26,390 bases of DNA from a virus. Made by a program: the position numbers and the translations under genes. The notes under the pieces were generated by a model. That model was given only the letters and a program-made list of their open reading frames with translations. It was not told where the DNA came from and did not search any database. The stretch lies in IMG/VR virus record IMGVR_UViG_3300017951_000101, positions 1-26,390 of that record; one strand, written 5' to 3'. This document shows positions 5,751 to 10,199 of the stretch, one piece after another. Within the stretch, counting starts at the first letter, position 1, and each line of letters opens with the position of its first letter.

Positions 5751-7001
5751 TTAGTATCCTGCCACTATGTCTAATATTTCGTGGTCATCAATTTCAAATT
5801 CGTAGCTATACGCCACGTTAGCCAACTGGTCTATGTACGCTAGCGCATCGACTAAGTCGTCGTGCGTCAGTACGTCTGGAAATTGAAACAACTGGTCGAG
5901 AAACCTAGAGTTCCATTCACCTTTGTTAAGTGTTATGAAGCCGTTTTCAAACCTTCCCTGTAACGCCCACATAACACGGTCTGTTTTCTTTTTGTTACCG
6001 TGTGTAAGTTCTTCTACCCGGAAAAACGTACCGTAACGCTTCTGTAAATCAAACAGGGGCGACATTACGGCTTGTTTAGCAATACCTCTCTCGATACCCA
6101 CGCTAACGGGACGGTAGTCTCTAACGGCCTGAAAAATTTTGGCGGCAGTCTCGTTAAGGTCCCATCGACCATAAATAATATTATCAACATACCAACCATC
6201 AGGATTGACTTTAACGACTGCGATTGCTGTTTCGTCGAGCTTACTGTTTTTGGTCTTCTTTTTATTGACTTCCTCAAACCCTGCCAAGTCAACAGCAATG
6301 TAGTAGTCTCCTATCTCCGGCTTATCTTCACTAAACTTAACCCAATCTTCCTTAAACATTTCTGACCCACGCGCTTCAAAACTAGCCATAAATTCTTGGC
6401 GAAACGCGTAAGAAGACATAGACTTTTTTGCAATATCGATTTCACTGGGGTCCAGCAACGGATTATCATACGAAGTAAAATGCCAACTGCGATACGTAGG
6501 ATCGTCTTCCAGTTCAGCGTACTTGTATAGTTCATAAAAATGGTTCCTTCCCATTGGTGTACCGATGAACAATGCACCGCCCTTTTGGTCAGCCAACGCA
6601 GGTCTCAAGATCTGCTCGAATACCTCTGGCTTCATGTCGGCGTATTCGTCCATTACTAGAAACTTCAAGGACACACCACGCATCGTCTCGGGTCTGTCGG
6701 CTCCCTTAAGACTAATCGTGGCCCCGTTGACTAGCTTGATCTGAAGGTTGTTAATATGCGAACCTTGGATCACTGGGTGTCCTAGCTCCAACAAGGTCTG
6801 CCACATGATGTCACGGGCTTGTCCTTGTGTGGGCGCAACGTAAAACACATGGCCTTTGTTTGCCTGTAGTGCGTTTACAATCAAAAGCCAAGCGGCTAGT
6901 CGAGACTTACCTGTCCGTCTACCTGCCGCTACAATCTTAAATCTTGTGTCGTCTGACCAGACATCTTGTTGCCAAGGCAGTAATTCTATGTTAAGATCCA
7001 T
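5751..7001 (-). CDS. terL: Terminase large subunit (packaging ATPase-nuclease)
   Basis: The 416-aa protein has a full two-domain terminase. The ATPase domain has Walker A at residues 26-33 (AGRRTGKS) and Walker B at 115-119 (LVMDE), with Glu119 as the catalytic carboxylate. The C-terminal RNase H-fold nuclease has Asp238 in 'IAVDLAG', Glu304 in 'VGIERG', and Asp381/Asp382/Asp385 in 'HDDLVDALAYI' near residues 380-390. All expected acidic residues are present, so it should be active. It powers DNA translocation through the portal and cuts concatemers. At 416 aa it is shorter than T7 gp19 (586 aa). The start overlaps the preceding TAA by one base, and the portal gene follows after one base. Packaging mode (headful or direct terminal repeats) cannot be told from the sequence. 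Confidence 0.95.
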   Translation of the reverse strand: MDLNIELLPWQQDVWSDDTRFKIVAAGRRTGKSRLAAWLLIVNALQANKGHVFYVAPTQGQARDIMWQTLLELGHPVIQGSHINNLQIKLVNGATISLKGADRPETMRGVSLKFLVMDEYADMKPEVFEQILRPALADQKGGALFIGTPMGRNHFYELYKYAELEDDPTYRSWHFTSYDNPLLDPSEIDIAKKSMSSYAFRQEFMASFEARGSEMFKEDWVKFSEDKPEIGDYYIAVDLAGFEEVNKKKTKNSKLDETAIAVVKVNPDGWYVDNIIYGRWDLNETAAKIFQAVRDYRPVSVGIERGIAKQAVMSPLFDLQKRYGTFFRVEELTHGNKKKTDRVMWALQGRFENGFITLNKGEWNSRFLDQLFQFPDVLTHDDLVDALAYIDQLANVAYSYEFEIDDHEILDIVAGY

Positions 7002-7363: not shown

Positions 7364-7707
7364 CAATACGTCCAGATTACAGGGGTTGTGCCACGGGTGT
7401 CGAGGTGTACAAAATTCTTAGCTACACCTATACCAGTAAACCCGTGCTTAAGAGCTAAGTTTACAATGGTGTATAAAGAACCGCCGTTTGTTATTTTTAT
7501 GTCGGCGGCAATGCCCTGACTATGTGTCCCCGGACGAGTCTTTTTGCTCTCTTCAGGGTGCGTAGGCGAACGATAGCCAGAGGTCACAATAAAAGGAAAG
7601 TTACATTCTTCCCGTAGAGCGTCTAGCTTCTCTAGAAACTCCATGCACATACGGTTTTCCCCGCTATGTGAGCAATCAAACTCGTCAACAGTGAAATATT
7701 TAAGCAT
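7363..7707 (-). CDS. Peptidase M15-family endolysin
   Basis: This is a 114-aa zinc peptidase of the M15 (D-Ala-D-Ala carboxypeptidase / L-Ala-D-Glu endopeptidase) type, consisting of the catalytic domain only. Visible motifs are 'SGYRSP' (43-48), 'THSQGIAADI' with metal ligands His62 and Asp69, and 'FVHLDTR' with His101 and Asp103. The 'DEFDCSHSG' segment at 8-16 is common in this phage subfamily. It should cleave peptidoglycan cross-links or stem peptides. No signal peptide or transmembrane export segment is present, so release would need a holin, and none is obvious next to it. It overlaps the upstream AT-hook gene (start within GATGCTTAA) and the downstream gene (TGATG). A lysis gene inside the packaging operon is compact but not unprecedented. 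Confidence 0.9.
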   Translation of the reverse strand: MLKYFTVDEFDCSHSGENRMCMEFLEKLDALREECNFPFIVTSGYRSPTHPEESKKTRPGTHSQGIAADIKITNGGSLYTIVNLALKHGFTGIGVAKNFVHLDTRGTTPVIWTY

Positions 7708-8083
7708 CGTCTATTATTTCACCTTCTATTGTAGACGCAGGGCTTACATCAACTTCCCCCACGCCTGTAATATTAATTTGTATGGCGTTTCTGCCCGCAC
7801 CTTGGACTACATCTTTCTCAAAAGCCCCTACAGGTAGTATCCTGTCCATCACAAGTTTCCAAGCGGCGGCTTGGTTTTTATGTTCGTTGTCCAAAGCGGC
7901 GTCAAAAATAGTCTCAAGCACTTTACGTGACTTAGGACTAGCCAACATACGAGCTTTGTACTCGTTTATGATCGATGCGTCGCCTTTTGGACGACCTACG
8001 GCACCTCTGTTGCCTGATTTTACGGCAGAAACTTCAGTCTTTCGGGGCCTGCCACGACCTCTTTTTTTAATTTCGTCTGGCAT
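7700..8083 (-). CDS. AT-hook DNA-binding protein, candidate small terminase subunit
   Basis: This 127-aa protein is the first gene of the leftward operon. Residues 8-15 contain an AT-hook core (RGRPRK, residues 10-15), and 'GRPKG' at 30-34 is a second, partial hook. The middle (residues ~40-90) is helical and includes 'ETIFDAALDNEHKNQAAAWKL' followed by 'MDRILPVGAFEKD', reminiscent of the helix-plus-'RLLP' segment in small phage DNA-binding proteins of the DUF5681 type. The C-terminus is acidic (EGEIIDDA). DNA binding by the minor groove is well supported by the hook. A TerS role is inferred from position at the head of the packaging operon and size. It could instead be a transcription regulator acting on the AT-rich region immediately upstream of its own promoter. 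Confidence 0.7.
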   Translation of the reverse strand: MPDEIKKRGRGRPRKTEVSAVKSGNRGAVGRPKGDASIINEYKARMLASPKSRKVLETIFDAALDNEHKNQAAAWKLVMDRILPVGAFEKDVVQGAGRNAIQINITGVGEVDVSPASTIEGEIIDDA

Positions 8084-8194: not shown

Positions 8195-8239
8195 CATATG
8201 TTTATTTTTAACATAATTTTCTTAATTTTCACCTATTTT
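8195..8239. other. AT-rich stretch, candidate DNA-unwinding element
   Basis: Of these 45 bases, 38 are A or T (about 84 percent), clearly more than in the flanking coding sequence. It lies about 60 bp from the first perfect DnaA box. Between them is a C-rich tract (8278-8293). AT-rich DNA followed by a GC-rich spacer and then DnaA boxes is the arrangement of many bacterial chromosomal unwinding regions. Function as an unwinding element is inferred. Confidence 0.45.
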
Positions 8240-8266
8240 GTGCCTAGGTAGCAACCCTATTATAAT
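8238..8266 (+). promoter_or_regulatory. Possible rightward promoter entering the DnaA-box array
   Basis: A perfect TATAAT (8261-8266) has a weak -35 candidate, TTGTGC (8238-8243), at 17-base spacing. Transcription would start near 8273 and run through the DnaA-box array toward the early genes. It could supply the early operon leader, a replication primer, or transcriptional activation of the origin. The poor -35 makes it a candidate only. Confidence 0.35.
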
Positions 8267-8290
8267 TAACGTGGCGTCCCTCCCCCCGCC

Positions 8291-8470
8291 CCCAAGTTAT
8301 CCACAGGTTTTACACAAGTTGTCCACACCTGTGAATATCCTGTGGATAACTTTACCGCGACCTGTGGATAAATCTGTGGATAACTTTAGGCTGCCTAGGG
8401 TTGTGGATAAAGTTATGCACAGGTTATCCACAGGTTATCCACAGGGTCAACCCAAGTTATCCACAGGTTT
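8291..8470 (+). repeat. Exact 20-bp direct repeat bounding the DnaA-box array
   Basis: The 20 bases at 8291-8310 (CCCAAGTTATCCACAGGTTT) recur exactly at 8451-8470, 160 bp apart. Each copy contains a complete DnaA box in the same orientation. The identity extends beyond the 9-bp box on both sides, so the two ends of the array share a common larger unit, suggesting duplication or selection for flanking bases. Confidence 0.9.
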
Positions 8471-8477
8471 ATCCACA
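8297..8477. other. Dense DnaA-box array: candidate replication origin or DnaA titration site
   Basis: Perfect TTATCCACA boxes lie at 8297, 8424, 8435, 8457 and 8469 (left ends, plus strand) and, as the complement TGTGGATAA, at 8341, 8363, 8375 and 8402. TTTTACACA (8308) and TTATGCACA (8413) fit the relaxed consensus TTWTNCACA, and TTGTCCACA (8319) has one mismatch. The orientation pattern is three forward, four reverse, five forward (one reverse-forward boundary at 8402/8413). Many left ends are 11 or 22 bp apart. Chance expectation of a given 9-mer on either strand in 181 bp is about 0.0014. TTATCCACA is the high-affinity box of bacterial DnaA (for example R1/R4 in E. coli oriC). Origin function, promoter control and DnaA titration are alternative interpretations. 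The sequence shows the array itself. Confidence 0.85.
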
Positions 8478-8783
8478 AGGCTCTAGAAGGCCATAGAATC
8501 GCCGTCACGGGGTTCCACTGCTGGGGTATGCTTGGGTATCAACTCAAGTTTGTCCGCGTTTTGCAAAATAAATTGCATTTTGATATTGACAAATGTGTGG
8601 ACTTATGTTGGTGCCTATAGTTGGCATGGTTCATGCTACGCGAGCATTCTATATCACGCGCACACGCGAGTAACATACAACACCGTCAATAGTCAATAAA
8701 AAATTAATGGTAATATTTACACTAGACAATGGCCTGTAATTCAGTACAATGGTCACATCTTAAATAAACAAAGGTAATGACAT
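8478..8783. promoter_or_regulatory. Early leader region without genes
   Basis: I find no credible gene here. It holds several small dyads. TGCAA/TTGCA arms (8562-8566 and 8573-8577) sit in AT-rich DNA. A perfect 13-bp palindrome, GCATG-GTT-CATGC (8624-8636), looks like a small operator. CGCG-CACA-CGCG is at 8657-8668. A TTGACA at 8586-8591 has no -10 at proper spacing (TATAGT at 8616 is 24 bases away). A better promoter lies at 8723-8750 and is listed separately. The region probably controls the early rightward operon. Confidence 0.4.
8723..8750 (+). promoter_or_regulatory. Candidate early rightward promoter
   Basis: TAGACA (8723-8728) and TACAAT (8745-8750) are each one base from the sigma70 consensus and are 16 bases apart. 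The predicted start near 8757 lies 27 bases before the first early ATG at 8784. It would drive the small-gene cluster. The spacing is slightly short, so confidence is moderate. Confidence 0.45.
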
Positions 8784-9084: not shown

Positions 9085-9276
9085 ATGGAAAACGTAACCA
9101 CATCAAAAATTCTTGGTCGATCTGTAATCCTTCGCAAGCGCAAGATCGTAGCCAAGCCGTTTAGCTACTCGGAAGGCCTATGCTTTCACAAGCTAACCGG
9201 TGGCCTGTACTCTCTCTACATTGAGAAGGGTTCACCGGAGCGTGCGGTTGGCTTCGGTAAAATCATAGATCGGTAG
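9085..9276 (+). CDS. Small basic early protein, unknown (63 aa)
   Basis: I start at the ATG at 9085, preceded by AAGGGAGGGCAAACAAC, a strong ribosome site. A longer version from TTG at 8992 would run through the hairpin leader and lacks a ribosome site. The 63-aa product begins MENVTTSKIL, is basic in its first half (ILRKRKIVAKPF) and has an aromatic/Gly-rich second half (GLCFHKLTGGLYSLYIEKGS). It looks like a small beta-rich domain. No catalytic motif is seen. Its leader shares several short elements with that of the next gene. Function is unknown. Confidence 0.65.
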   Translation: MENVTTSKILGRSVILRKRKIVAKPFSYSEGLCFHKLTGGLYSLYIEKGSPERAVGFGKIIDR

Positions 9277-9290
9277 TTACTGCCGGGATT

Positions 9291-9322
9291 CACGGAACCT
9301 CGCCTAGTGCGGGGTTTTCGTG
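9291..9322 (+). terminator. Hairpin with short T-run, possible terminator or attenuator
   Basis: CCTCGC (9299-9304) pairs with GCGGGG (9309-9314, one G-U) around a CTAGT loop and is followed by TTTT. The stem can be extended outward (CACGGAA with TTTCGTG, one bulge) to span 9291-9322. The T-run is only four bases and lies about 30 bases before the next ATG. It may only partly terminate and so step down expression of downstream early genes. Confidence 0.45.
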
Positions 9323-9348
9323 GTATCTAAACAAAAGAGGGCAACACT

Positions 9349-9552
9349 ATGTACTTTGACCGATGGGACATTTGCGAGGCATACTATATCTATGCTGTCG
9401 ACTATATGAATGGGCAAAAAAGCCCTGAAATGCGTATGCTTTACAGGCTCAACAAAATGGGGTATAAACCTGCCGGATTCCATGGTGGTTATTCGTCGCT
9501 ATCAGAAAACGGTAAGGCCATCTATCAATCATTGATTCGGAGATACGCATAA
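9349..9552 (+). CDS. Small conserved-looking phage protein, unknown (67 aa)
   Basis: The ATG follows AGAGGGCAACACT, a good ribosome site. The 67-aa product begins MYFDRWDICEAYYIYAVDY and ends with a 'LYRLNKMGYKPAG...SLSENGKAIYQSLIRRY' pattern. It has an aromatic N-terminal helix and a C-terminal helix and looks like a folded mini-domain with one Cys. I have the impression that 'SENGKAIY' mini-proteins recur in environmental phages and plasmids, but I cannot name a family or function. Its stop overlaps the start of the GP88-like gene (TAATG at 9550-9554), so the two are translationally coupled and may act together. Confidence 0.7.
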   Translation: MYFDRWDICEAYYIYAVDYMNGQKSPEMRMLYRLNKMGYKPAGFHGGYSSLSENGKAIYQSLIRRYA

Positions 9553-10199
9553 TGATTAAACTGTCGAAGGCCTCAAAAATGCCCGGGCGTTCATGGTCAC
9601 TACAAGCGCTTGACACTTGTCCCGGTTCAAAGAATCGAGACGGGTCACTAGTGGACGCCTGTAGTGGATGCTATGCCACGCAAGGCAACTACCGCTACCC
9701 AAACGTCAAAGCCCCTAGGGAGCATAATCGACAAGATTGGAAACGTGGCCAATGGGTAGACGACATGGTCGCAGAATTGGACAATGATCGTTATTTCCGG
9801 TGGTTTGACAGCGGCGATGTTTACGACATCCGACTAGCCCGTAAAATCCTGGAAGTGATGAAACGGACGCCATGGTGTAACCATTGGTTACCGACACGCT
9901 CGTACAAATACGAAAAGTTTATCCCTGTTTTTACTGAAATGATGAAATTGCCTAACGTGGTTGTCCGTTATTCTTCAGACAGTATTATTGGAGAAACCGT
10001 AGAAGGCTCTCAAACGTCCACCATAGCAACGCCAAGCACTATCCCTAGTGGTGCCCTAGTTTGCGAAGCATATCAACGAGACGGCAAATGCGGGGCTTGT
10101 AGAGCGTGTTGGTCAAAAGACGTGGCGATAGTCTGCTACATTGGTCACGGGAAAAGCATGGTTAAAAAGCAAAATGACATCATTGCGAGGGTAGCATAG
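9552..10199 (+). CDS. GP88-like Cys-rich phage protein
   Basis: This 215-aa protein resembles the phage 'gene product 88' family. Conserved-looking features are 'TCPGS' (Cys23), 'ACSGCYA' (Cys37, Cys40), 'RWFDSGDVYD' (~residues 83-92), 'HWLPTRSYK' and 'NVVVRYSSD'. A C-terminal cluster has Cys171, Cys180, Cys183, Cys186 and Cys195 ('CGACRACW'). The Cys spacing (CxxC, then CxxCxxC) suggests a bound metal or an Fe-S centre. The fold of the middle part (short strands each followed by helices, with 'FDSGD') could be barrel-like. The biochemical role is unknown to me; a radical-SAM-like or metal-dependent enzyme is only a speculation. It is coupled by overlaps to both neighbours (TAATG upstream, TAGTG downstream). 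Confidence 0.75.
   Translation: MIKLSKASKMPGRSWSLQALDTCPGSKNRDGSLVDACSGCYATQGNYRYPNVKAPREHNRQDWKRGQWVDDMVAELDNDRYFRWFDSGDVYDIRLARKILEVMKRTPWCNHWLPTRSYKYEKFIPVFTEMMKLPNVVVRYSSDSIIGETVEGSQTSTIATPSTIPSGALVCEAYQRDGKCGACRACWSKDVAIVCYIGHGKSMVKKQNDIIARVA

Follow-up and report, generated by a model that had tools for sequence, protein, structure and literature searches.

Interchangeable arrays of putative DnaA and sigma-54 sites within the short direct terminal repeat of an uncultured phage group

In the phage DNA analyzed here (the window, 26,390 bases of a partial genome), a dense array of DnaA boxes was found in a stretch that, by homology to relatives, is predicted to be a short direct terminal repeat (DTR). 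Among close relatives, the type of array was found to be replaced while the terminal repeat was kept. The reading that we tentatively favor is that of an exchangeable array at the DNA ends on which host proteins dock, its likeliest role being the control of DNA entry. An earlier, sequence-only reading had recognized the dense boxes and their position at the divergence point, but had missed their enclosure by the DTR and the swapping of sites in relatives.

The array and its genomic setting

The whole window was scanned for the DnaA box TTATCCACA. Nine perfect copies, five on the plus strand and four on the minus strand, were found within 181 bp (Table 1), and no other perfect copy was present in the 26,390 bases, both as had been noted from the sequence alone. 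Of three near copies also reported there, two have a single mismatch, whereas the third (TTTTACACA, around 8308) matches only at two. With up to one mismatch allowed, the window contained 18 sites against 5.9 expected, and none of 100 shuffles scored as high. The steps from box to box were mostly 11, 12, or 22 bp.

The array lies between the last leftward gene (7700 to 8083, minus strand) and the first rightward gene (8784, plus strand), and these flanking directions bear out its earlier placement at the point where early and late transcription diverge. The GC skew of the window also flips at the array, an effect that is fully confounded with gene direction. An AT-rich block and a C-rich cluster lie beside the array; the AT-rich block is kept in relatives with or without boxes and falls mostly outside the DTR cut site.

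The leftward genes encode the large terminase subunit (TerL), a portal of the SU10/P22 type, and a peptidase, while the rightward genes encode a T7-type primase-helicase, PolA, a PD-(D/E)XK nuclease, endonuclease I, DUF3310, and a class II ribonucleotide reductase. The description of the phage as T7-like holds for its replication genes but not for its portal. The T7-type primase-helicase, PolA, and endonuclease I are shared with the Autographiviridae, whereas the single-subunit RNA polymerase of that family was detected in 0 of 10 relatives of 34.8 to 37.7 kb, the window itself being partial; the same polymerase model matched two true T7-like phages, P483 and phiEap-1. No DnaA domain was found in the ten relatives of this size, and bacterial controls were detected.

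The group is uncultured. The closest TerL among phage records was below 60% identity, and among isolates neither a close TerL nor any match to the small terminase subunit (TerS) was found. No DnaA array was present at the divergence region of the phages HTVC103P and HTVC115P. Host assignment through contigs of metagenome-assembled genomes was dropped, as it returned four unrelated bacterial groups.

Table 1. Features of the window around the divergence point (a slash marks the predicted cut)
Feature	Position	Strand	Basis or remark
Large terminase (TerL)	5751..7001	-	Pfam Terminase_6N/6C
Small basic protein adjoining terL, AT-hook match; likely small terminase subunit	7700..8083	-	Inferred from position
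Left DTR-edge motif TTTTGTGCC/TAGGTAG; family form TTTTGTGYC/TRRGTRG	8236..8251	+	Conserved in relatives
Predicted DTR, 367 bp, expected at both genome ends	8245..8611		Homology to relatives including G019 and G020
Conserved C-rich cluster CCCTCCCCCCGCCCCC	8278..8293	+	Alignment and motif profile
DnaA-box array, 9 perfect and 2 single-mismatch boxes, both strands	8297..8477		Motif scan
DnaA box 1, TTATCCACA	8297..8305	+	Perfect
Near box TTGTCCACA	8319..8327	+	1 mismatch
DnaA box 2	8341..8349	-	Perfect
DnaA box 3	8363..8371	-	Perfect
DnaA box 4	8375..8383	-	Perfect
DnaA box 5	8402..8410	-	Perfect
Near box TTATGCACA	8413..8421	+	1 mismatch
DnaA box 6	8424..8432	+	Perfect
DnaA box 7	8435..8443	+	Perfect
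DnaA box 8	8457..8465	+	Perfect
DnaA box 9	8469..8477	+	Perfect
Right DTR-edge motif GTGTGTGGACTTATGTTGG	8593..8611	+	Conserved in relatives
Sigma-54-like -24/-12 site TGGCATGGTTCATGC, one base off TTGC	8622..8636	+	Just outside the window DTR

The terminal repeat and its edges

A TerL search returned 80 loci of relatives. In several, 5 to 10 perfect boxes lay at a matching distance from terL (1.29 to 1.53 kb upstream of its start in the array-bearing relatives), and many had none. Arrays at the same divergence point, the first check proposed for the sequence-only reading, are thus present in relatives. When the relatives were aligned, a fixed left element, TTTTGTGYCTRRGTRG, was followed, usually after 28 or 29 nt, by CCCTCCCC and then by the variable array; the spacer between the left motif and the GC cluster was 28±1 nt in nearly all of 131 matches. 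A right element, GTGTGNGNNYYTRNGTNGG, came 62 to 444 nt further on in 96 of 121 relatives. The two elements are alike, reading GTCTAGGTAGG and GTCTRGGTTGG in one subgroup, and this likeness may mean that both are cut by a single terminase. The left edge is predicted to be cut before TAGG at 8245. In L206 and L207, the divergence region of the Pelagibacter phage HTVC103P contains TTTTGTGCAATGAGT...CCCACCCCC, which resembles the left core and suggests that the terminus signature may reach the pelagiphages.

Contig ends coincided with these elements. Six contigs (G009, L091, L105, L267, L297, and L311) each terminate on the final base of the right motif, and in one (L318) the first base is that of the left TAGGTAGG. 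Of the right ends of 106 complete contigs, six lay in the 20 nt that follow the right motif, where the background is 1 to 2 per 100 nt. In a near-complete relative of 35,799 bp (G019), the succession of left motif, array, and right motif was found at both ends, starting about 10 nt inside the left element and ending on the last base of the right one; its two repeat copies both hold DnaA boxes and differ slightly from each other, as expected from a strain mixture. In a second near-complete relative of 35,152 bp (G020), the two elements bound a terminal repeat of 190 bp whose copies are identical. Contig breaks caused by the hypervariable array alone were considered, and breaks are indeed enriched there, but this is insufficient: a real terminus is needed to account for two contigs that carry the repeat at either end and for six that stop on one and the same base. 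In the relatives, the stretch between the left and right motifs is therefore a short DTR. The window record stops short of its own ends, and its DTR, placed by homology, is predicted to enclose every box, so that the array is expected at each end of a packaged genome.

Site content of the repeat in relatives

Within 450-bp regions of 121 relatives, TTATCCACA was found 218 times, compared with 0.5 in shuffles, and the -24/-12 signature of sigma-54 (RpoN), TGGCAYRN4TTGC, was found 206 times, compared with 0.3. Both kinds of site were identified by consensus match and are putative binding sites. Motifs for CRP, FNR, ArgR, PurR, IHF, CtrA, and alphaproteobacterial LexA showed no enrichment in the relatives' regions. 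A total of 137 distinct DTRs were then compared, ranging from 124 to 505 bp with a median of 214 bp. RpoN sites characterized 57 and DnaA boxes 39, with 6 carrying both; 4 were Fur-like, 1 was Zur-like, and 30 held no recognized type. Confinement to the repeat was strict for DnaA boxes, 219 of 230 lying within DTRs (31.7 kb) and 11 outside (1.03 Mb), an enrichment of about 650-fold. RpoN sites numbered 240 within DTRs and 36 outside, the latter mostly within 50 nt of the repeat, and 32 forward sites were located no more than 50 nt from the DTR end. The sigma-54-like site of the window at 8622 to 8636 occupies this same place and may be a real early promoter.

DTR arrays of several further, unidentified repeats were also seen, namely AATGCAATGCAGA (L040, L153, L179), RGTTCYAWAATAGAACT (L170, L181, L182), ATAAAGATATCTTTAT (L137, L143, L169, L177), AAACAAACAGACACGMTTGTTT (L127, L171, L176, L196), and GCAACACGAGAT (L166), which are possibly sites of further host proteins. 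An initial impression of Fur and LexA arrays in DTRs was scaled down, since no LexA site and only a minority of Fur sites fall within the DTR. Fur-core matches outside DTRs numbered 24, and a Fur-box-like AATGAGAATCATTATCAT or close variant overlapped or directly neighbored the first early gene's start codon in six relatives (L011, L015, L016, L018, L020, L041). In four others (L040, L153, L176, L177), CTGTA-N6-TACAG, which is like gammaproteobacterial LexA boxes, occurred downstream of the right motif. Together, the Fur-like and LexA-like sites hint at gammaproteobacterial hosts. Repeats that bind TerS (pac) are an unlikely identity for the arrays, which coincide with perfect DnaA and sigma-54 consensus sites.

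The different arrays were exchanged between close relatives. Mapping of three array classes onto the 88 rows of a TerL tree required no fewer than 24 changes of class, compared with 38 when shuffled, and well-supported branches forced at least 5 per class. The closest pair, L166 and L051, is 99.8% identical in TerL, yet the first has three DnaA boxes and no RpoN site, and the second nine RpoN sites and no DnaA box. The same DnaA-versus-RpoN split was observed for L178/L149, L117/L112, and L013/L018, with the pairs spanning 99.8 to 98.8% TerL identity. The flanking edge elements were constant across array types. Hence, the array type is replaced while the terminal repeat is kept.

Placement in other phages and candidate functions

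Unrelated phages were identified by BLAST with the array as the query; a sigma-54-array query gave no match among phages. In the Berlinviruses P483, A7, and nasanit, the interval separating terL from the first early gene, near the concatemer junction, holds phased TTATCCACA arrays. These are true T7-like phages, P483 having its own RNA polymerase, and the likeness rests on position relative to terL and the first early gene. In phiEap-1 and ZK1, the array is in the first ∼200 bases of the record, and in Vibrio phage BD1 it is in the last bases. Siara has three single-mismatch boxes inside a 2,528-bp PhageTerm repeat, and arrays lie <100 bases from the end in Arthrobacter phage Seahorse and ∼340 bases from the end in Microbacterium phage Squash. 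Other matches, for example in Lactococcus phages, are away from record ends. Dense TTATCCACA-like repeats were also seen around 2011 to 2081 of Microvirus mar31 (MZ089777), a small single-stranded DNA member of the Microviridae.

The known system closest in kind is the injection stop signal of T5, whose repeats, palindromes, and DnaA boxes are proposed to recruit host components and halt further transfer, by a mechanism still described as unresolved (PMC13250531). The annotated signal (9140 to 10149) lies inside the left terminal repeat, which enters first, and contains four box-like sites at 9437 to 9510, only one of them perfect. Common to T5 and the present group are the direct terminal repeat (in the window, by homology), repeated DnaA boxes or box-like sites, and the proposal that host components bind them. 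The T5 element, however, sits ∼9 kb from the end, on the far side of a 10-kb repeat, whereas the arrays described here are 50 to 230 nt from the tip; and in place of four box-like sites there are up to 10 perfect boxes in a repeat of 124 to 505 bp, exchangeable for sigma-54 sites.

On the docking reading, the location of the array inside a short DTR would give each linear genome docking sites at both ends. The docked protein would be host DnaA in the window phage and mainly sigma-54, on promoter-type sites, in close relatives. Given the free exchange of sites between fixed repeat edges, what seems to matter is that some tightly binding host protein sits on the DNA end rather than DnaA itself. 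Once the first few hundred bases reached the cytoplasm, the host protein would bind and the end would be paused or anchored, a pause that may be comparable to the T5 stop signal. Protein binding, the identity of the first-entering end, and the role in entry are each our inference, and entry control is ranked first among end-specific functions on the T5 precedent. Docking at the ends is also favored by the confinement of sites to the DTR, their mixed orientations, and the similar placement of arrays in other phages. Counting against it are the 30 of 137 DTRs without a recognized site and the presence of the array in both DTR copies, with which a role at the right end, in packaging or repeat duplication, fits equally well.

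Among the alternatives, a decoy ranks next but is unlikely. Here, many high-affinity sites would titrate host DnaA or sigma-54 and so block host initiation or regulation while the phage multiplies. Nine perfect boxes per DTR, in two DTRs and multiplied by phage copy number, are consistent with titration, as are the near-consensus boxes and the targeting of more than one regulator in relatives. It leaves unexplained, however, why the sites are confined between the DTR edges, why arrays recur at the termini of unrelated phages, and how titration of DnaA and of sigma-54 could be interchangeable between near-identical phages.

A host-DnaA-dependent origin, one of the functions proposed from the sequence alone, appears improbable. 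DnaA would melt the neighboring AT-rich block and the phage primase-helicase would load, replacing the RNA polymerase priming of T7. Dense, phased, high-affinity boxes beside a conserved AT-rich block and C-rich cluster, the skew reversal, and the lack of a detectable phage RNA polymerase in the ten relatives all agree with this, and sigma-54 sites could serve as a transcription-activated alternative. Judged from array-bearing relatives alone, the resemblance to oriC (unwinding element, GC cluster, and boxes) was strong, but it weakened once the same flanks were seen to hold other arrays. Dense high-affinity boxes at helical spacing are shared with bacterial oriC and datA clusters; here, by contrast, they are on a phage terminus, are swapped in close relatives, and come with no IHF enrichment. 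The boxes end at the edges of the DTR, the AT-rich block is kept whether or not they are present, and the skew has the confounding described above. Boxes were not conserved among close relatives, being absent where TerL is nearly identical, and since they are exchangeable between such phages, a conserved DnaA-dependent origin is the weaker reading.

Processing of the terminal repeat is a candidate that we consider more doubtful still. Docked proteins would form an obstacle on the concatemer at which forks, RNA polymerase, or terminase pause, and this would allow the single repeat to be copied and then cleaved at each edge. The bracketing of the array by two related cut motifs next to terS and terL and the Berlinvirus arrays at the concatemer junction would fit, but an obstacle of this kind would need to work on DNA that is being replicated and thereby cleared of bound proteins. 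Finally, host DnaA or sigma-54 might regulate the early and late promoters that diverge here, a role also raised earlier for DnaA, but this reading is very improbable: the divergent location, the bias of DTR sigma-54 sites toward the early genes (189, against 51 opposite), and the 32 forward sites just after DTRs are in its favor, but it explains neither the strict confinement to the DTR nor the mixed orientations (both strands in 16 of 32 DnaA arrays and 21 of 63 RpoN arrays), and control by DnaA would differ from control by sigma-54.

T5 already provided a case of DnaA boxes located in the terminal repeat of a phage. As far as our partial coverage of the literature shows, in which no paper on the arrays of this phage group was found, what is new is that a short repeat holds a dense array and that this array has repeatedly been exchanged for sigma-54 sites. 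The DTR edge motifs provide sequence signatures by which genome ends may be recognized in this abundant uncultured group of phages. It is possible, though we hold this with less confidence than the docking array itself, that a widespread marine group carries interchangeable host-regulator arrays in its DTRs, mostly one kind per phage, either DnaA or sigma-54 and occasionally another, as generic landing strips. Any tightly bound host protein might then hold the incoming end, and the protein would be evolutionarily replaceable, a proposal that we likewise rate as no better than possible. Little is understood of the part that host DNA-binding proteins play at phage genome ends during entry or packaging, and repeated site swaps at a fixed terminal position amount to a natural experiment that sets a need for DnaA against a need for any bound protein.
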